This document shows, piece after piece, positions 15,722 to 51,588 of a DNA stretch of 64,000 nt. The stretch covers positions 62,001 to 126,000 of the forward strand of contig JAACZU010000010.1 in assembly GCA_009996615.1 (NCBI GenBank), read 5' to 3'. Below the pieces are notes generated by a model. That model was given only the letters and a program-made list of their open reading frames with translations. It had not been told where the DNA came from and ran no database searches. Within the stretch, counting starts at the first letter, position 1. Each line of letters begins with the position of its first letter. Origin of the DNA: Rhodanobacteraceae bacterium (lineage in GTDB: Bacteria; Pseudomonadota; Gammaproteobacteria; Xanthomonadales; Rhodanobacteraceae). The translations under genes were made by a program, and so were the position numbers.

Positions 15722-18700
15722 TCAGCGCTTGCGCGCGACCACCGGACGACCGGACCGGGCCGGCGCCTGGCCAGCCGCCGCCTGGCAGTCCAGCGTCATG
15801 TCGTCGATCATCGCCCCGCCGATCGCGCCGCCGGGAGCATCCGCGGTCCAGCTGAACGCGATCAGGTGCGGCTGGCCGTCGAGATACTTCGCCGGCATCT
15901 GGATGCCGGCCTGCGCCCAGTCCGAACCGCCGCTCTGCGGCGCGATCGTCGCCAACGGCGCGCCATCGATGCTGAGCTTGAGGAAGGCCGTGCCGTCGCC
16001 GCCGATCTGGTTGACCATCCAGTAGTTGAGCCAGCGCGGCTGCCCGGCTGGAATGACCACGGATTGGCTCAAAGTGGCGGTATTGGGCTGGTCCCAGCCG
16101 CCAAACCAGACGAACCATTGGCCGCTGCGTGCGACGAACTGGCCGCCGTCGTCGCAGGCTTCGTCGCAGAACGAGGTGCCGCCGAGGCTGTCGGTGCTGG
16201 CCCAGAACGGGTTGTCGTAGTCGACCGTCGCCTCGAAGCCCGGGTCCTGGAACAGCTGCAGCGGCGCGCAGGTCTGGCCGCCGCTCGTCTCGAAACCATC
16301 GGCGAAGATGCGGTCGGTGATGTCGTTCGTGCAGGTGACCGCGACGTTGGTGACGTTCGCGCCGGCGACCGTGCCGCTGCCGTTGGCGACCGTGCAGGTC
16401 TGCGCCGGATTCGCCGGCTGCGCGGTCACCGTGACCGCATAGGCCGCCCCACCAGGCAGGCCACCGGTGAACACGAACAGGCCGTTCGCGCTCATCGGCA
16501 GCGTCGCGCCGCCGTTGAGCTGCAGCACCAGGCCGCTGCCGGCCAGCCCGCTGACGCGACCGCCGACCGTGTAGGTCTGCGGCGGCAGGTCGGCGCAGGT
16601 CACGGTGACATTGGTGATGTTCGCGCTGCCGATCGTGCCGCCGCCGTTGGCGATGGTGCAGGCCTGGCCGGTCGGCTGCGCGCCGATGGTCACCGTGTAG
16701 GCGCTGCCGCTGGCCAGTCCGCCGGCGAACGTGAATGGGCCGTTCGCGTTCACCGCGAGGTCGTTGCCGCCGTTGAGCTTGAGCGTCAGGCCGCTGCCGC
16801 TGAGGCCGGCGACGGTGCCGCCGACGGTGTAGGTCGTGGCGGTCGTGCAGGTCACGGCGACGTTGTCCACGTTGGCCGTGCCGATCGTGCCGCTGCCGTT
16901 GGCGACCGTGCAGGTCTGGCCGGCGGGCTGCGTGCCGACGGTCACGGTGTACGGCGTTCCGCTGACCAGGCCGCCGGCGAACGTGAACGGGCCGTTCGTG
17001 CCGACCGTGAGGTCGCTGCCGCCGTTGAGACGGAGCACCAGGCCGCTGCCGGCGAGGCCGGCAACGGTGCCGCCGACGGTGTACAGCTCGCCCGCGGCCG
17101 CGATCGTGAAGTCGCCCGGCGAGACGTTGAAGAACACGTTGGTCGCGCAGCTCACGCTGACGCGCGCCTGGCTGGTCGTGATCGCCGGCACCGTGACGCT
17201 GGCGCTGCCACTGTTCGCCACGCCACTCGCGAGCGTGTGCGGGAAGGTCTGGCCGCCGTCGGCGGACAGCGTGATGTCGACCGCGCCACAGCTGACCGGC
17301 GCGACGTTCGTGTTGGCGACGTCCCAGGTGACGGTCTGCAGCGAGCCCTGGCCCCAGCTGGCCGCGCCGGCCGGCGCGGTCACCTTGAACGGGCCGGCGC
17401 TGTTGGCCACGCTCAGCGCGATGTCCGCGCTCTGGCTGGTGCCGGCGCCCGCGCGGTTGTCGCGCACGGTCAGGCGGAACTTCAGCGCGCGCGTGGTCGT
17501 CGGCAGCGTCTCGCCCTTGAGCGGCGCGCCGCCGAGCACGGTCGACAGCGCCGGGAACACGCGCGTGCCGGTCGGCACCGGCGCGAACGCGCGGAAGATC
17601 GGGCTGGAGCCGTTGTCGCCGGCGGTCAGCGGCGCCTGCGGGCCGAGGTCCCATTCCTCCCACGAGTAGCTGAGCACGTCGCCCGCATCGGCATCGCTCG
17701 CCGTTCCGCCGAGCACGAACGGCGTGCGTGCCGGGATCGTCAGGCCGGTCGGCAGGTTCGCGGTATCGATCACCGGCGCCTGGTTGTCGTTGGGCGTGCT
17801 GGCCGAGCAGTTGCCGCCGGCATTGGTGTAGTTGGTGATCTCCTGCAGGCTGATCGCGTGGAAGAACGGATCGGAATGCGCCTGCAGGTCGTCCGCGCCG
17901 CAGATGCCGGCGTAGCCCATGACGGTCGAGCCGCTGCCCGGCTCGTAGGCGGTCGAGCCGTTGCGATTGCCGCCCGAGCAGTTGCTAATCGAGCCGTTGA
18001 ACGGATGGTTGCCGCCGAACTGGTGGCCCATCTCGTGGGCGACGTAGTCGATGTAGAACGGCTCGCCGGTCGGGTTCGGCAGGCCGGTGGTGCCGCGCGC
18101 CTTGACCGAGCCGCAGACCACGCCGAGGCCGGCGACGCCGCCGCTGCCGGTCGTGAACACGTGGCCGATGTCGTAGTTGGCCGAGCCGATCGCGGCGTTG
18201 ATGACCGTCGTGCTGTTGTTGATCACGCCGGTGCCGTTGCCGGCGAACGGATCGCTGGCCGCATCCGGGTACATGATCAGGTCGTTGTTCGGCACCAGCG
18301 TCAGCTGGATCGCCATCTCCGATTCATACACCTGGGTCACGCGGTTGAGCGCGGCCACGGTCGCGGCCAGGCCGCCCGCCGCGGTGCCGCCGCCGACCGC
18401 CGCGATGTACTTGTTGTTCGCCGCCACCGCGGCGCGGTAGACGCGCTTCTTCACGCCGGTCTGCGTCATCGGCGCCGGCGGCACGAGCGCCAGGCCGGCC
18501 GCATCGATGTTGCTGCCATGCACCTCGCACTGCGGCGTGGCGCCGGGCACGGCCAGCTCCGCGCGCCGGAAGCTCAGGTAGCGGTCGCCTTGGCCGAGCA
18601 CCTCCGGGCGCACCAGCCACACGCCGGCCGGGTCGAACACCATCGCCTGGAAGCCGAGCGGCGACACGTCCAGGCGCAGCGCACGGCCGCGCGCGTCGCT

Positions 18701-19039
18701 GCCCTTGAGGCTGATGATGTCCGGATACTTGCGCTGCAGCTCGGGCGGCAGCGTGCCCGAGTCGGTCACGAGGAACTCGGCGAGGCCGCCCTCGGGCTGC
18801 GGCAGCGAGACGCTGGTGGCGATGCCGCGCGCGTGCGCGTTCCCGAGGTAGGCGGCCATCGCCGCGCCGTCCAGCGTCAGTGCGCGGTACGCGCCCGGTT
18901 GCGGCGCCGTGGCTGCCAGCGGACGTGCGGTCTCGTCGTGCCAGTACGCGTCGGTCGGCGCCGCCCATGCCGTCGCGGCGCCGGTCAGGCCCAGCAGCCA
19001 GGCGCCCTGCAGCAGCCTGCGGATCAATCGTTCGTTCAC
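15722..19039 (-). CDS. Secreted zinc metalloprotease (reprolysin-like) with tandem repeat domains
   Basis: The product is 1105 aa from a GTG with GGGGAG upstream. A signal peptide (ending TAWAA, about residue 27) and a prodomain precede a metzincin catalytic domain. Its zinc motif is HEMGHQFGGNH at 335-345 (ligands His335, His339, His345; Glu336 catalytic). A GSTVMGYAGIC segment provides the Met-turn. Residues about 653-905 hold three tandem repeats of 84-86 aa beginning YTVGGTVAGL. A DRIFADGFE motif at 909-917 follows, then a jelly-roll-like C-terminal domain (FQDPGFEATVDYDNPFW...). It probably acts outside the cell on proteins. Similar reprolysin-like enzymes are common in Lysobacterales. 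The start at 19039 is chosen over longer in-frame options because it gives the signal peptide. Confidence 0.9.
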   Translation of the reverse strand: MNERLIRRLLQGAWLLGLTGAATAWAAPTDAYWHDETARPLAATAPQPGAYRALTLDGAAMAAYLGNAHARGIATSVSLPQPEGGLAEFLVTDSGTLPPELQRKYPDIISLKGSDARGRALRLDVSPLGFQAMVFDPAGVWLVRPEVLGQGDRYLSFRRAELAVPGATPQCEVHGSNIDAAGLALVPPAPMTQTGVKKRVYRAAVAANNKYIAAVGGGTAAGGLAATVAALNRVTQVYESEMAIQLTLVPNNDLIMYPDAASDPFAGNGTGVINNSTTVINAAIGSANYDIGHVFTTGSGGVAGLGVVCGSVKARGTTGLPNPTGEPFYIDYVAHEMGHQFGGNHPFNGSISNCSGGNRNGSTAYEPGSGSTVMGYAGICGADDLQAHSDPFFHAISLQEITNYTNAGGNCSASTPNDNQAPVIDTANLPTGLTIPARTPFVLGGTASDADAGDVLSYSWEEWDLGPQAPLTAGDNGSSPIFRAFAPVPTGTRVFPALSTVLGGAPLKGETLPTTTRALKFRLTVRDNRAGAGTSQSADIALSVANSAGPFKVTAPAGAASWGQGSLQTVTWDVANTNVAPVSCGAVDITLSADGGQTFPHTLASGVANSGSASVTVPAITTSQARVSVSCATNVFFNVSPGDFTIAAAGELYTVGGTVAGLAGSGLVLRLNGGSDLTVGTNGPFTFAGGLVSGTPYTVTVGTQPAGQTCTVANGSGTIGTANVDNVAVTCTTATTYTVGGTVAGLSGSGLTLKLNGGNDLAVNANGPFTFAGGLASGSAYTVTIGAQPTGQACTIANGGGTIGSANITNVTVTCADLPPQTYTVGGRVSGLAGSGLVLQLNGGATLPMSANGLFVFTGGLPGGAAYAVTVTAQPANPAQTCTVANGSGTVAGANVTNVAVTCTNDITDRIFADGFETSGGQTCAPLQLFQDPGFEATVDYDNPFWASTDSLGGTSFCDEACDDGGQFVARSGQWFVWFGGWDQPNTATLSQSVVIPAGQPRWLNYWMVNQIGGDGTAFLKLSIDGAPLATIAPQSGGSDWAQAGIQMPAKYLDGQPHLIAFSWTADAPGGAIGGAMIDDMTLDCQAAAGQAPARSGRPVVARKR
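16331..17083 (-). repeat. Three tandem ~255-bp coding repeats in the metalloprotease gene
   Basis: Units start at 17083, 16831 and 16573 (84, 86 and about 82 codons). Each encodes YTVGG-V-GL-GSGL-L-LNGG ... CT-ANG-GT...NV-VTC. Units 1 and 2 are closest. The fold is probably an Ig-like or carboxypeptidase-regulatory-like beta sandwich. The conserved Cys pair near each unit's end could form a disulphide outside the cell. Confidence 0.85.
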
Positions 19040-37542: not shown

Positions 37543-39489
37543 TCAGTCGAAGCCGTTCGCGAACAGGCGGTCGTCGATGCGGAACACCTGGATGCCGCCT
37601 TCGACCGAGAACGCGAACAGGCGCCCGTCGCCGCTCACGCGCAGGCGGTCGGGCGGCATCGGCAGGGCGTGCTCGGCGACCAGGGTCGGGTGCGCCGGAT
37701 CGGCGATGTCGAGCTCGGCGATGCCCCAGCCGCCGCCGAAGTACACGCGCGTGCCATCGAGCGCGACCGTCGTGGGCACGTAGGCGGCGCGCTCGAACAC
37801 GCCGAGCGCGACCGGGTTGGCCGGATTGCGGATGTCGACGACGTGCATGCCGTCGTTGCAGCCGAGCACCGCCAGCGTCCCCTGCGGATTCAGCGCGAGG
37901 TCGTCGGCGCTGCCACAGGCGTTGTAGAAGCCGACCTGCACCGGCAGCTCCGGCTGGCTGACGTCGGCGATGCGCAGGCCGCCGCCGCGGTCGCCGGCGA
38001 ACTCCTGGTCGGCGATGAACACGTGCTGGCCGCGCACGTCCAGGCGCATCACGCGGCTGGTGAACAGGACGCCGAGCGGAACCGGCTTGGACGGGTCGGA
38101 CACGTCGAGCGTGACCATCTCGCCGCCATTGGTCGCGCGGCCGATGTAGGCGTAGTTGCCGTTCGCCGCGACCGCGCCGGCGTAGTCGTACTCGAAACGG
38201 CCCAGCTCGTGCGCGTTCAGCGGATCGGTGATGTCGACGATCATCAGGCCCATGCCCCACGCCGCGAGGTAGGCGCGGTTGCCGTCGACCGCCATCTGCT
38301 CGAAGTCGCGCTGCTGCAGCATCAGCGGCAGGTTCGCGTCGAAGCGGCCGATCGGCTCGAGGCTGGCCGGATTGGCGACGTTCAGGCCGTAGACCTCCTC
38401 GAGGAACAGCGCCTTGTCGCCGCGCATCAGCACGTCGCGCGGCGACAGGCCGCCGCGCAGCGTCGTGTCGCTGCGCAACAGCGGCTGTGCCGGCGTGCCG
38501 ACGTCGACGTGCAGCAGGCGGTCGGCGCGGCTGAAGGCGAGGAGGCCGGCGTTGCCGAACGGCACCGCCTCGTCGGTCGCGAACGCATCGATGGTCGAGT
38601 GCGCGACGAACGCCGGTGCATCCGGGTTCGCCAGCGTCCACACGTCGATGCCGTCCATGCCCAGGCCATAGGCATGCGTGCCGACCACGGCGCCGTTCAG
38701 CGCGACCGGGCTCTCGACCATGCCGCGATCGACCGGCTGCCACGGGTCGCTGACGTCGTGCACGTCGATCGCGAGTCCGAAACCGACCGCCAGCGGCGGC
38801 GCGAGCTTCAGGCGGAAATCGTTGAAACCGTCGTAGCCGCCCAGGCCGGCCGCGAGCGGCAGGTCCGGCTGGGTGATGTCGTAGACCTGCAGCATCGTGC
38901 CGCCGAGCCAGTTGCGGCCGATCGCGTACAGGTGGTTGCCGTGTGCGTAGGCGTAGCTGAACCCGGTGCCGGTCGGCAGCGTGCGCGTGAACGTCGGGCG
39001 GGCCGGATCGCTCAGGTTGCCGACGAACAGGCCGTTTTCCTGGTCGAACAGGTACAGGCGGTCGCCGGTGGCGACGATCGTCGTGACGTAGCGGTAGTCC
39101 TCGTCGGTGTAGTCGTTGACCTCGCGCACCAGTTGCGGATGCGCCGGGTCGGCCAGCGAGTAGACCGCGACGCCGGCATCGGTGCCGTCGTAGCGCGTCC
39201 AGCTCGCATAGAGCCAGGCGCCGCGCCGGGTCAGCGCGGTGATCTTGCCGGTGGTCGGCTGCGCGCCGGTGTCGCCGAGGCGGACCGGGGTGCCTGGCTG
39301 GCGCAGGTCCCACGCGGTGACGACGGCACCGGTCGGCACGTAGACGAAGCCGGACGCGTCGACGACCGGCTCGCGCACGCTGCCGCCGAGCGCGGTCAGG
39401 AAGGACAGGGACGGCCGCGCGGTGTCGGCATGGGCAAACGGAGCGGCAACGGCGAAGGCAAGCGCCATCGCCAGGCTTGAACGAAACAT
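37543..39489 (-). CDS. Exported LVIVD-repeat beta-propeller protein with C-terminal DRLFANGFD tag
   Basis: The product is 648 aa. Of two adjacent ATGs, the second (39489) has the better 6-bp spacing from AGGAG. A signal peptide (ending PFAHA) leads to a body of repeats of about 45-50 aa with the LVIVD pattern, for example NRAYLAAWGMGLMIVDITDPLNAHELGRF and GNYAYIGRATNGGEMVTLDVSDPSKPVPLG. This pattern is known as the LVIVD repeat and is expected to form a secreted beta-propeller. The last nine residues (640-648) are DRLFANGFD, a motif shared with two other exported proteins in this window. The partner or ligand is unknown. It is monocistronic. Confidence 0.85.
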   Translation of the reverse strand: MFRSSLAMALAFAVAAPFAHADTARPSLSFLTALGGSVREPVVDASGFVYVPTGAVVTAWDLRQPGTPVRLGDTGAQPTTGKITALTRRGAWLYASWTRYDGTDAGVAVYSLADPAHPQLVREVNDYTDEDYRYVTTIVATGDRLYLFDQENGLFVGNLSDPARPTFTRTLPTGTGFSYAYAHGNHLYAIGRNWLGGTMLQVYDITQPDLPLAAGLGGYDGFNDFRLKLAPPLAVGFGLAIDVHDVSDPWQPVDRGMVESPVALNGAVVGTHAYGLGMDGIDVWTLANPDAPAFVAHSTIDAFATDEAVPFGNAGLLAFSRADRLLHVDVGTPAQPLLRSDTTLRGGLSPRDVLMRGDKALFLEEVYGLNVANPASLEPIGRFDANLPLMLQQRDFEQMAVDGNRAYLAAWGMGLMIVDITDPLNAHELGRFEYDYAGAVAANGNYAYIGRATNGGEMVTLDVSDPSKPVPLGVLFTSRVMRLDVRGQHVFIADQEFAGDRGGGLRIADVSQPELPVQVGFYNACGSADDLALNPQGTLAVLGCNDGMHVVDIRNPANPVALGVFERAAYVPTTVALDGTRVYFGGGWGIAELDIADPAHPTLVAEHALPMPPDRLRVSGDGRLFAFSVEGGIQVFRIDDRLFANGFD

Positions 39490-39654
39490 CATGTTCTCCT
39501 GCACGTGGAACGGGGTGCTGCGAGCCCTTGCGGGCCGGGGGAGTATTCACGTTGGCGCCGGCGCGCGCGGTCGCCGCGTGCTCGCCGGATGCTCGCTGCG
39601 TGCTCGCGGCGGGCGATGGGAGTGCTTGCGCGGCCGGAAACAGCCGGGCAGGGC

Positions 39655-48179: not shown

Positions 48180-49595
48180 TCACGCGCCGTCGAAGCCGTT
48201 CCCGAAGATCCGGTCGAAGTTCGACGGCGGCAGGTCCGTCCCCTGGAAGATGCCGAGCGGCGTGTAGCCCGCGTAGCCGGGGAACACGTGGTAGATGTTC
48301 GGGTTGCCCATGCGCCGGATCAGCGCCTCGGACACGACCTGGCGGTAGTCGGTGGTGACCGCGACGTCGGTGCCCTGGTAGAGCTGGTCGCTGCGCAGGC
48401 CGGGGAAGTTGCCGTAGACGACGCCGCCGTTGACCGCGCCGCCGAGCGCGAGCATCACGTTGCCGTAGCCGTGGTCGGTGCCGCCGTCGGCGTTTTCCTG
48501 CACGCGGCGACCGAACTCGCTGACCACGAGCACGTTGACGTTGCGCATGTAGTTGCCAGCCGCGTCGCTGGCGAGGTCGGTGTAGAACGCGGCCAGGCCG
48601 GCGGACAGGCTCTCGACCTGGTTGCCGAACCAGTCGTAGCTCTGGCTCGGGTTACCCTGGCCGACGTGTGTGTCCCAGTTGCCGAGGTCGATCGTGACCG
48701 CGCGCAGGCCGAGGCCGAGCTTGATCAGCTGCGCGACGTTGCGCAGCTGGTTGCCGAAGCCGGCGTTGTAGTTGAGCGCGTAGTTCGCGCCGCCGGACGG
48801 CCGGTAGCCGCCCGGGTTGCTGGTCGCGTTGTACAGGCCGAAGTTGATCGGCCGCAGCAGCGCGAGCGAGCCGAGCGTGTCGGCGCCGGCGCGCTCGAGC
48901 AGCGTGCTGCCGTTCCACAACCCGTTCAGGCGCGACACCGCGCCGACCAGACCATGCGCCGGGTCGTCGTCCTGCCACGACCAGTGGAACGTGTCGAGGC
49001 GGAAGTCCGAGGCGCTGTCCATCGTGATCGCGTCGGTGCTGCCAAGCAGGCTCGAGGCGGTGAGGCTGCCCATTGACGCGGCCGGCAGCGGCACCGTCGC
49101 CGGCAGGCCGCCGCTGGCGAGGTGGCGCGTCATCCAGCCGATGTTCGTGCCGGTGCCGCCGCCGAAGCCGAACTCGAGGTTCGCCTGCGCCTCGAAGTGG
49201 CTGCGCACGACCGGCACCGGCTGCTTCTGGCCCGCGGCGACGACGAACGCGAGATGCTGCGACTGGAACAGGTCGCGCAGCCCGCTCGCGCGCGGATGCA
49301 GCGCCCACTGCGTGCCGTTCAGCGCGAGCGCGGCGCCGGTGCCCGAGGTCGGGACGCGCGTGCCGCTGCGCGCGACCTCGTAGTCGGCGCGGAACGGGCT
49401 GTTCGCGCCGGGCGGCAACAGGCTGAGGCCATCCATCGCGCCGCGCAGGAAGATCACGACCAGCGTGTCGGCGGTCGCCGCGGCCGGCTGCAGGTCGGGC
49501 GGCGCGAACCAGGCCAGCGCGCGCTCGCTGGTGCCGGCGGCGAGGCCGGCGGCGCAGCAGCCCTTGAGGAAATCGCGGCGGTTCAGAGAGGTCAT
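48180..49595 (-). CDS. Tat-exported DUF1501 protein ending in DRIFGNGFD
   Basis: The product is 471 aa from the ATG with AGGAG nine bases upstream. It begins with a twin-arginine signal (SLNRRDFLKGCC). The body is the alkaline-phosphatase-like DUF1501 fold, with LVVIFLRGAMDGLSLLPP, DLGNWDTHVGQG, VLVVSEFGRRVQENADGGTDHGYGNVMLALGG and a metal-type Asp/His set. DUF1501 proteins usually occur next to DUF1800, as here, and their biochemical role is unknown. Residues 461-469 (DRIFGNGFD), near the C-terminus, match the end of the LVIVD protein at 37543. It is translated 11 bp after the DUF1800 stop, so the two form an operon and probably one complex. Confidence 0.9.
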   Translation of the reverse strand: MTSLNRRDFLKGCCAAGLAAGTSERALAWFAPPDLQPAAATADTLVVIFLRGAMDGLSLLPPGANSPFRADYEVARSGTRVPTSGTGAALALNGTQWALHPRASGLRDLFQSQHLAFVVAAGQKQPVPVVRSHFEAQANLEFGFGGGTGTNIGWMTRHLASGGLPATVPLPAASMGSLTASSLLGSTDAITMDSASDFRLDTFHWSWQDDDPAHGLVGAVSRLNGLWNGSTLLERAGADTLGSLALLRPINFGLYNATSNPGGYRPSGGANYALNYNAGFGNQLRNVAQLIKLGLGLRAVTIDLGNWDTHVGQGNPSQSYDWFGNQVESLSAGLAAFYTDLASDAAGNYMRNVNVLVVSEFGRRVQENADGGTDHGYGNVMLALGGAVNGGVVYGNFPGLRSDQLYQGTDVAVTTDYRQVVSEALIRRMGNPNIYHVFPGYAGYTPLGIFQGTDLPPSNFDRIFGNGFDGA

Positions 49596-49606
49596 CGCGC
49601 GGGCTC

Positions 49607-51457
49607 CTAGCGACGCAGGAATTCGGGGCTGCACAGGATCAGCGCGACCGCGGTGCGCAGGCGCGCGATCGTGTAGTGCTGCGACAGGTTGTTGAGGTTC
49701 CACTTGCCGGTGCGCGCCGGCTGGCCGTTCGGGCTGTCGTCGCTGACGAGGTCGAGCGGCGCGCTCGCGGCGGCGTTCTGGCGCAGCAGGTCGATCGCGG
49801 CCGTGTGCAGCGGCTCGGGCCGGTAGCCGAGGATGCGGTCGCACCAGTAGCCGATGATCGCCGCGGCGCTGCGGCCGGCCGGGTCCGGGAACGCGGCCAG
49901 CGTCTGCGCCTGGATGTCGGTCAGGAACGGATTGGCGTTGTTGTAGCTCTCGACCTGGTGCATCTCGAGCAGGCGCGGCAGCAGCTTCAGCGTCATGCCG
50001 AGCGTGCCGGTGCTCGACCAGGCGACCTGGTCGTCCGGATAGCCGTTCGGCGCCGGCCAGTAGAACAGGCGATGGCCGGCCGCCTGCAGGCGGCCGACGA
50101 ATTCCTTGGTCGGCGTGTAGGTCGAGGTGTTGTCCGGCACCGGCGTGAAGTCGGCGCCGGTCGCGCGCAGCGCGCTGACCGCGGCCAGCGCCGGGCGCTT
50201 CATCTTGGTGCCCCAGTTCGTCTTGAACGCGTCCGACTGCAGGATCAGGCGCAGCACCTGTGCGATCTGGTCCGGCGCCTGCCACTGCTGCTGGAACAGC
50301 TCGGCCGCGTCCTGCACCAGCGCGGCGGGCGCGTTGTCACCGACGAAGCGCCGGCACAGCTTGCCGGCGACGAAACGCGCGGTGCCCGGATGCTGCGCCA
50401 GCATGTCGAACAGCAGCAGGCCGTCGGCCTGGCGCTGGTAGGCGGCGAAGTAGCGCGCCAGCACGTGCTTGGTCAGCTGGTCATGGCGCGTGTCGTCGTA
50501 GGCGAAGTCGCCGAGCGGTGCGCCGTTGACCGGCGTGTACGGCCAGTTCGCGCCGGACACGGTCCAGCCGGTCAGCGCGCGTGCGGCCTCGTAGACGTCG
50601 TCGTCGACGTAGCGCAGGCGCTGCTCCTCGCCGTCCCAGGCGGTGAAGTGGCCGAGCGCCTGCATGTTGGCCCAGCTGTCCGGATTCGGCACGATGCCGG
50701 CGTAGTTCTCGGCGCCGAGCGTGTGCAGCTCCAGCAGCTCGCGCGCGTAGTTCTCGTTCGGATGGCCGGCCTCGTTCGCGTACAGGTCCAGCATGTACAT
50801 CATCGAGGCGGACTTGCCGACCGCCTCGAGCATCGCGCGGAAGTTGCCGAGCGCATGACCGTACGGGCGGATCGCGTCGCGGTCGAAGGCCGGAAACATC
50901 GGGCCGCCGTCGTAGTCCCAGCCGAACACGCTGAAGTGGTCGTGCCAGAAGTCGACCATCACCTCGTACAGCTGCCGCTGGCTGTAGGTCTGGCGGATCA
51001 GCGTCGCGCACTCGCTTTCCGACACCGGCAGCATGCGCGTGTAGTAGTTCGAGCTTGCGTGGTGGTCGGTCCAGAGCTGGTTCGCGCTCTTGCCGAGCGT
51101 GGTGAAGCCGGCGCCGGCCAGGCGCGCGTCGCAGGCGGTGTCGGCGATCGCGGCGGGATCGAGCTGGCGCGTCAGCCACGCCAGCCAGCGCGCATCGTCG
51201 TTCGCGCCGAGCGCGAGGAAGGCGGCGTGCTCGGCGGTCGAGAAACCGAACGTCGTGCGCGTCAGCCAGCGCACCGCCGAGGGCGGAAACGTCAGTGCCT
51301 GCGGGCTGGTCGGCAGCTCGGCCTCGCGCATGCCGTCGCGGCCCGGCCGGCGCATCGCCAGCGCCGGATCGGTCAGCGGCGCGCCGGTGCTGGCGGCGAG
51401 GGCGGTGAACAGGCGTCGGCGCGAGGCGACGAAGGCGGCATTCGCGGGGGCGGCCAT
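49607..51457 (-). CDS. DUF1800 family exported protein
   Basis: The product is 616 aa from the ATG with GGAG six bases upstream. The N-terminus has a possible twin-arginine-like stretch (SRRRLFTALAAS). The family motifs are clear: WLTRTTFGFSTAEHAAF, SECATLIRQTYSQRQLYEVMVDFWHDHFSVFG, ENYARELLELHTLGAENY, and CRRFVGDNAP. The C-terminal half contains WPAPNGYPDD and RLRTAVALILCSPEFL, conserved ends of DUF1800. The protein is expected to act in the periplasm or at the surface with the DUF1501 partner. No enzymatic function is established. This is the first gene of the pair. Confidence 0.9.
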   Translation of the reverse strand: MAAPANAAFVASRRRLFTALAASTGAPLTDPALAMRRPGRDGMREAELPTSPQALTFPPSAVRWLTRTTFGFSTAEHAAFLALGANDDARWLAWLTRQLDPAAIADTACDARLAGAGFTTLGKSANQLWTDHHASSNYYTRMLPVSESECATLIRQTYSQRQLYEVMVDFWHDHFSVFGWDYDGGPMFPAFDRDAIRPYGHALGNFRAMLEAVGKSASMMYMLDLYANEAGHPNENYARELLELHTLGAENYAGIVPNPDSWANMQALGHFTAWDGEEQRLRYVDDDVYEAARALTGWTVSGANWPYTPVNGAPLGDFAYDDTRHDQLTKHVLARYFAAYQRQADGLLLFDMLAQHPGTARFVAGKLCRRFVGDNAPAALVQDAAELFQQQWQAPDQIAQVLRLILQSDAFKTNWGTKMKRPALAAVSALRATGADFTPVPDNTSTYTPTKEFVGRLQAAGHRLFYWPAPNGYPDDQVAWSSTGTLGMTLKLLPRLLEMHQVESYNNANPFLTDIQAQTLAAFPDPAGRSAAAIIGYWCDRILGYRPEPLHTAAIDLLRQNAAASAPLDLVSDDSPNGQPARTGKWNLNNLSQHYTIARLRTAVALILCSPEFLRR

Positions 51458-51588
51458 GGAGCACTCCGTGGGCGGGCGCGATCGTGGCCGTCGGCGGATG
51501 CCGGCGAACACGAACCGCAGGGCGTTCCGATCATACGAAAGGCCCCCGGACGTGCTGTGACTGCGCGCGCGAAACTGGCGGACTTCCT

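Follow-up and report, generated by a model that had tools for sequence, protein, structure and literature searches.

A short C-terminal motif on exported proteins in the order Xanthomonadales/Lysobacterales, and a second type II secretion system that tends to co-occur with it

The question raised by this locus is why three otherwise unrelated proteins, encoded within one stretch of 64,000 nucleotides of a Rhodanobacteraceae genome (the whole stretch analysed, hereafter the window), should share a nonapeptide built around the core [ILV]-F-x-[ND]-G-F-[DE]. A preliminary description read it as a short sorting, processing or surface-attachment tag, an interpretation that is supported here, although the function itself is still inferred. 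The tag has a preferred position, is linked to export signals, is restricted to one order and co-occurs with a second type II secretion system (T2SS), here designated T2SS-A.

The tag in the window and in its source genome

The three nonapeptides of the preliminary description are present in the window (Table 1), all on the minus strand; plus-strand reading of 16289-16315 gives unrelated residues, and no further copy was found in any of the six frames of the window. The three carriers (M12B reprolysin-like, LVIVD repeat, DUF1501) belong to unrelated families. Export signals, which it ascribes to all three, can be read as follows: a signal-peptide-like start in the metalloprotease, a signal peptide in the LVIVD protein, and in the DUF1501 protein an N-terminus, MTSLNRRDFLKG, that by reading appears to be a twin-arginine signal. 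Numbering of the first copy as residues 909-917 of the metalloprotease holds provided that translation starts at GTG 19039, a start inferred from its signal-peptide-like character; this copy seems, judging from sequence alone, to separate a set of tandem repeats from a beta-sandwich-like region at the C-terminal end. Upstream of the tagged DUF1501 gene, a frame read as DUF1800-like (about 49600-51550, minus strand) is without the tag.

Table 1. Copies of the tag in the window and the genes that carry them
Feature	Position	Strand	Remarks
Tag copy DRIFADGFE	16289..16315	(-)	internal, 188 residues ahead of stop
M12B reprolysin-like metalloprotease	15722..19039	(-)	Pfam PF13574/PF13583; carrier of internal tag
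Tag copy DRLFANGFD	37546..37572	(-)	extreme C-terminus, stop directly after
LVIVD-repeat protein, signal peptide, tag at end	37543..39492	(-)	PF08309
Tag copy DRIFGNGFD, then GA, then stop	48189..48215	(-)	
DUF1501 protein, tag at end	48180..49595	(-)	PF07394

The source assembly comprises 3,910,402 bases (3.91 Mb) in 40 contigs. The pattern IFx[ND]GF[DE] matched it 36 times and the reversed pattern not once; a wider pattern gave 69 matches and its reverse gave one. Translation of the stretches fetched round the matches (603 kb, window included) likewise yielded 69. Distance to the stop was at most 10 residues for 51 of the 69 matches and at most 3 for 43. Random positions would have refuted the preliminary description, and that refutation failed. 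The other 18 matches comprise one that is clearly chance (L083, in a membrane protein TerC-like by reading, without a family scan), two copies directly after a signal peptide (L067, L092) and 15 internal copies, 30-739 residues ahead of the stop, several of which are inferred to precede a beta-sandwich region. The preliminary description is amended in that copies also lie between domains and right behind signal peptides. L092 is, by reading, another DUF1800-like protein.

The consensus approximates D-x-[ILV]-F-x-[ND]-G-F-[DE]-(0-4)-stop. Core residues F, G and F were demanded by the search and are hence invariant; D at -2 was not demanded, and is present in 45 of the 51 C-terminal source-genome copies and in 23 of 55 copies from other families. 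R at motif position 2, part of the motif as first written, is not conserved (17 of 51 C-terminal copies). The 20 residues before C-terminal copies contain on average 2.8 D/E and 1.3 K/R. Looser forms found in DUF1501 relatives (IFKSGFE, IFAASFD, IYKGGFE, IFKAGFD) escape the search, so that all tag counts are lower bounds. Among the 51 C-terminal copies are 46 distinct DNA 21-mers, from which we conclude that the peptide is conserved, not the DNA; a DNA-level repeat or insertion element was rejected on these grounds, together with the AT-rich codons used in family f9.

Carrier proteins and taxonomic range

Signal-peptide-like starts were scored for 65 of the 69 matches, several of them at implausible internal codons. 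By a separate gene call, bearing on the claim that carriers are exported, 38 of 40 C-terminally tagged genes had such a start, vs 122 of 348 others; the scorer is crude and permissive, and no fewer than 11 of the 51 genes with a C-terminal tag escaped the gene call. Both Sec- and Tat-type proteins bear the tag. Aligned, the 51 C-terminally tagged proteins show 8% mean column identity, with only F, G and F of the tag invariant. Pfam families among them are DUF5122 propellers (5), Big_13, Rax2 and WD40 (3 each), DUF11, S8 peptidase, FG-GAP and others (2 each), and M14 peptidase, endonuclease I, GH44 and GSDH (1 each); NCBIfam adds choice_anch_Q (9), delta-60 repeat (5), choice_anch_J (2) and NxxGxxAF (1), and three proteins match MXAN MYXO-CTERM-anchored families. 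The scan used E 0.001, not all matches being over curated cut-offs, and covered the top 25 of 68 Pfam and top 25 of 41 NCBIfam families, ranked by members. None of these top families models the tag region. Any model describing the common tag should head the ranking, whose largest entries are choice_anch_Q (9) and DUF5122 (5); among these top families, then, no named sorting domain accounts for the tag, and the preliminary description likewise knew of none. We found no earlier description in the literature searched, which was limited to open-licence PMC papers.

By reading, L077, L090, L093, L094 and L103, and also L169, L172 and L173, represent a family of small exported proteins, with several copies per genome, that contain repeats of the G-G-F-W kind and end in the tag; in the source genome they are about 90-120 residues long.

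The DUF1501 family shows the tag to be separable from the domain it follows. A search of 38 genomes gave 26 homologues, distributed over 15 of them. Of the 23 from tag-bearing genomes, 12 have the tag or a variant at the end (G000, G110 twice, G150, G012, G031 twice, G002 twice, G036 twice, G008); the 11 others lack it (G163, G091 twice, G003, G036, G008 twice, G012, G016 three times), as do all three in tag-free genomes (G032, 51% identity; G126, 48%; G080, 37%). Homologues at 49% identity in G163 and G091, both tag-bearing, are also untagged, so the family demonstrates separability and not a loss tied to T2SS-A; the idea that DUF1501 would prove the tag to disappear after T2SS-A was not borne out. 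Two relatives have a linker 8 residues shorter and the tag still terminal. The DUF1501 protein of the window shares 74% identity with a protein encoded on L216, a Dokdonella MAG contig, from which a source in or close to Dokdonella is inferred. AlphaFold prediction for the DUF1501 protein from 4 sequences gave a mean pLDDT of 36.7 and was discarded as unusable.

Across the order Xanthomonadales/Lysobacterales, strict matches occur in 103 of 200 genomes and in 11 of 12 sampled families, reaching 80 per genome in family f9, whose codons are AT-rich, vs 0-2 per genome for reversed controls; over the order as a whole the tag is coded by AT-rich as well as GC-rich codons. In the rest of the class, 49 of 271 genomes have a match, with a maximum of 3 each, and the reversed control matches some too. 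We take the tag to be at background outside the order within the class, which supports the suggestion that it is group-specific. For ten other genomes of the order, sampled as 40 stretches picked round listed matches in families f4, f6, f9, f10 and f11, 55 of 63 matches lie at the C-terminus, and in 50 of these only 0-2 residues remain before the stop.

A GC-rich form of the pattern followed by a stop retrieved at least 116 stretches from a public genome collection, 107 of them with a tagged frame. Titles of the latter name Dokdonella, Tahibacter, Marinicella, Pseudofulvimonas, Pseudolysobacter, Lysobacterales/Xanthomonadales, Rhodanobacteraceae, unspecified proteobacterial MAGs and one Accumulibacter MAG. 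The matches outside the order (Zooshikella, Spirochaetales, two Eubacterium, Thermoplasmata) are likely due to chance, because they are part of a group of 9 stretches, out of 116, in which no open frame of at least 80 residues ends in the tag; the remaining 4 of these 9 are Lysobacterales-type or Proteobacteria contigs. The tagged frame on L238, a contig titled Candidatus Accumulibacter UBA704, probably reflects a misbinned Xanthomonadales contig.

Tandem tags are also seen, e.g. IFSNGFESDVIFKDGFE-stop. Such pairs, 30-39 bases apart, either end the protein or follow its signal peptide in L138, L141, L158 and L160 (f9) and L156 (f11).

These results bear on one alternative, that the motif is chance or a functionless relic of a repeated domain. 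One match in 69, L083, speaks for it. Against it stand the controls (0-1 vs 36-69 matches), the shortened linker in two DUF1501 relatives with the tag still terminal, and the spread over 11 of 12 families in AT- and GC-rich codons both. Pure chance is refuted by position and distribution, and we regard this alternative as very unlikely. It is very likely that the tag is real, belongs to exported proteins of one order and is undescribed so far as our searches reach.

Co-occurrence with a second type II secretion system

The T2SS was chosen as first partner candidate on the ground that its cargo is already folded and structurally diverse; it is known to take both Sec- and Tat-exported proteins from the periplasm (PMC12369372), and the twin-arginine signal on a tagged protein was noticed only after that choice. 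Only three partner families were tested, and no genome-wide profiling lies behind the choice of T2SS-A. The preliminary description had proposed looking for a co-occurring protease or sortase-like gene; that proposal is amended, the best tracker among the three families being the second T2SS.

In a panel of 48 genomes, two GspD secretins score over the family cut-off in 23 of 23 tag-rich genomes and in 4 of 25 tag-free ones (G061, G074, G044, G064). Two properties expected of T2SS substrates are present: a T2SS is encoded in the genome, and the carriers have Sec or Tat signals (the 38 of 40 signal-peptide-like starts, by the crude scorer, and a twin-arginine start by reading). Trees of GspD and of GspE each resolve two fully supported clades, A and an Xps-like B. 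Clade B draws on tagged and untagged genomes alike; clade A contains the tag-rich genomes plus G044 and G064, which belong to genera with few tags. None of five sampled tag-free genomes falls in clade A, a count to be read with the presence there of G044 and G064, which have 0 strict matches each.

The term T2SS-A refers to gspC-gspD-gspE, with gspF and ftsEX adjoining in about half of the fetched loci. Automatic gene calls over 13 such loci found gspC in 11, gspE in 12, and gspF, ftsX and rhlB in 7 each. The order in L306 is rho, rhlB, gspC, gspD, gspE, gspF, ftsE, ftsX, its GspC scoring 93.7 bits against a cut-off of 101.6; GspC of L304 has T2SSC and PDZ domains. The gspCDEF genes adjoin ftsE-ftsX in L306, L305, L297 and L294, and rhlB lies upstream in L305, L306 and L297; no gspG-N genes belonging to this system were located. 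A tagged gene is close to the T2SS in 1 of 20 loci (L304), a hint at most.

A profile built from 10 GspC-A proteins was run over the 200 genomes of the order, and its results are bimodal: 101 genomes score at E <=1e-34, the others having nothing, PDZ-only matches or a distant GspC (E 1e-26 to 1e-18 in G061, G175 and G155). GspC-A is present in 74 and absent from 9 of the 83 genomes with at least three tag matches; for the 117 with fewer, it is present in 27 and absent from 90 (Fisher p 1e-21, shared descent ignored). Within family f1, 5 of 5 genomes with GspC-A are tagged vs 0 of 29 without; in f2 the figures are 1 of 1 and 0 of 34, and the match inspected there, in G106, is not C-terminal. 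G019, of family f9, has neither a secretin nor a tag match.

The association has exceptions in both directions. Seven of the nine genomes with at least three matches and no GspC-A are 77-94% complete (G048, G059, G118, G122, G171, G178, G182); the other two, G063 and G097, both of family f8, are 97-98% complete. G118 (94% complete, 41 matches) has no secretin over cut-off and G182 (81%, 33 matches) no secretin; both lie outside the 48-genome panel. In f8, C-terminal tags end long frames in G042, G056, G107, G097 and G132 and a short frame in G122; these six genomes have no GspC-A, and their sole full GspD over cut-off is Xps-like. G063 and G171 have 6 and 4 matches (uninspected) and likewise no GspC-A. 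The association is weak within f8. Conversely, the 27 genomes with GspC-A and 0-2 matches include both f7 genomes and 19 of the 21 in genus g24 of f10, and G156 and G176 have deep-branching A-type GspD with no tag match. T2SS-A is thus neither strictly required for a few tags nor enough for many, and the association depends on few independent losses (f1, f2 and one f9 genome). An extended motif, FxDGFExGD, was considered as an alternative tag that would explain the few f10 tags and rejected as too rare, occurring in 9 of 70 genomes with an in-frame stop in 2 of 10 matches. In G042 (contig C13, L108/L130), a genome without GspC-A, two convergent genes, both tag-ended, lie about 50 bases apart.

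A second alternative is that tag and T2SS-A are both ancestral traits of a lifestyle with many large exoproteins and have been lost together with these, the tag serving another partner or T2SS-B. In its favour, f8 genomes in which Xps-like GspD alone was found still have C-terminal tags, T2SS-A is kept with few tags in f7 and f10 g24, and independent losses are few. Against it, no genome at least 95% complete and without GspC-A exceeds 6 strict matches (G118, at 94%, has 41), and untagged DUF1501 persists in tag-free G032, G126 and G080, so that cargo was not simply lost, an argument tempered by the 11 of 23 homologues also untagged in tag-bearing genomes. We consider joint loss unlikely.

Proposed mechanism and remaining alternatives

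The best-supported mechanism is that the tag is a linear sorting or secretion signal read by the GspC-containing T2SS-A, a reading to which we assign a probability of roughly 0.46 in the absence of binding, secretion or processing data; an unknown processing enzyme ranks next. The tag would mark exported proteins for passage across the outer membrane, possibly with surface retention, through T2SS-A. Proteins would leave the cytoplasm by Sec or Tat through N-terminal signals, which are visible in the sequences; they would fold in the periplasm with the tag exposed as tail or linker; the [ILV]-F-x-[ND]-G-F-[DE] core would dock on a T2SS-A component facing the periplasm, for which the N-domains of GspD or the PDZ-bearing GspC are the most plausible candidates; and exit would be via GspD-A, all steps after the first being inferred. 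Because copies can be internal, in tandem or followed by 0-10 residues, a free C-terminal carboxylate is apparently unneeded, and it is unlikely to be the feature recognised.

T2SS substrate choice is an open question; composite structural signals have been described, and no linear universal one is known (PMC7949064, PMC12369372). A bolder reading, that a position-tolerant seven-residue linear signal recruits dozens of unrelated folded Sec/Tat proteins to a dedicated GspC-containing T2SS, is put forward tentatively, the odds being against it. If true, T2SS substrate choice would become testable by simple reporter fusions, and annotators could list part of the order's exoproteome from the C-terminal tag.

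Among described T2SS determinants the nearest parallel is PelI, in which an exposed 9-residue loop with a needed Asp serves as secretion signal and contacts GspC and GspD (PMC7949064). Unlike the PelI/Pel3 loops, the VesB Ig fold and the GspC PDZ determinants, which are protein-specific composite signals, the tag is one linear motif on unrelated proteins. Type IX (Por) C-terminal domains resemble it as C-terminal sorting signals without a tripartite design (PMC3237569). Those domains belong to Bacteroidota and run to roughly 70-100 residues, whereas the tag has only 7-9.

The GlyGly-CTERM/rhombosortase system likewise places a short C-terminal region on otherwise unrelated exported proteins, with several targets per genome and a T2SS implicated (PMC3237569, PMC11980579). 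The tag differs in lacking a transmembrane helix and basic tail, as the preliminary description had noted with respect to PEP-CTERM and GlyGly-CTERM: it does not follow the helix-plus-basic-cluster design, 51 of 69 matches leaving 0-10 residues behind the motif, too few for a helix as judged by length without a helix predictor. It differs also in that rhombosortase scores over cut-off in 0 of 23 tag-rich genomes, and in that the tag tracks a T2SS subclass whereas rhombosortase was reported to mark none (PMC3237569). With MYXO-CTERM/myxosortase it shares dozens of tagged proteins per genome (surface proteins there), T2SS transport (only proposed for the present tag) and internal placement, of a single copy there and maybe a fusion (PMC11980579); it has no invariant Cys, helix or Arg-rich end. 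The tag would widen C-terminal sorting tags past the helix-plus-basic-tail design.

The principal rival is that the tag is the substrate of an enzyme not yet recognised, be it sortase-like, legumain/GPI-transamidase-like or a transferase of lipids or sugars, which acts at [ND]-G-F and fixes proteins to the surface, T2SS-A being a mere carrier as the T2SS is for GlyGly-CTERM and MYXO-CTERM proteins. In its favour are that use of the T2SS by both of those groups (PMC11980579) and the choice-of-anchor matches at E <=0.001 (choice_anch_Q in 9 of 51 tagged proteins, choice_anch_J in 2, NxxGxxAF in 1), choice-of-anchor domains bearing varied anchors elsewhere, judging from the name. The LVIVD protein of the window also matches choice-of-anchor B (TIGR04312) weakly, below cut-off (E 2.5e-9, 36.9 bits, cut-off 100). 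In addition, [ND]-G-hydrophobic resembles the ligase sites of asparaginyl endopeptidases. Against it, the 0-10 residues behind C-terminal copies are too short for a helix and basic tail, and cleavage at internal and N-terminal copies would split proteins. Exosortase (PF09721) is found in 13 of 23 tag-rich and 4 of 25 tag-free genomes, and none was found in G110 despite its 64 matches; only 2 of the 48 panel genomes, each of them tag-free, have a rhombosortase over cut-off, and weaker rhomboid matches occur in 48 of 48. Exosortase and rhombosortase were accordingly rejected as obligatory partners on their distribution over the 48-genome panel. An enzyme of another kind remains possible.

In the source genome, a short exosortase-like frame (G000:C4:269564-270007, in an open frame of 201 residues) lies about 2 kb from tag L084 (C4:271949); we take it to be perhaps part of an XrtH/IPTL-CTERM system.

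A last alternative is that the tag serves, without covalent attachment, for retention or assembly at the outer surface, export being by any route: it would be a beta-strand that completes a jelly-roll receptor lacking one strand, or a segment that associates with itself. By reading, the motif does resemble the strand that opens the beta-sandwich-like regions behind internal copies (e.g. LFQDPGFEATVDYDNPFW, TLVEGFDDIATLAGAGW); an extended form occurs at a C-terminus (FTDGFESGDTSAWTTTVP) or opening a domain (L156); and tandem copies would suit multivalent binding. The extended form is rare, however, as given above, and surface retention alone leaves the T2SS-A association unexplained, with no receptor behind it. 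We judge it unlikely, and reading by T2SS-A remains the preferred account.

The extended form DGFESGDTSAWTTTVP lies at the C-terminus in L127 (G104), and a similar sequence follows a tandem tag near the protein start in L156 (G010), from which it appears that the tag may derive from the first strand of a domain.
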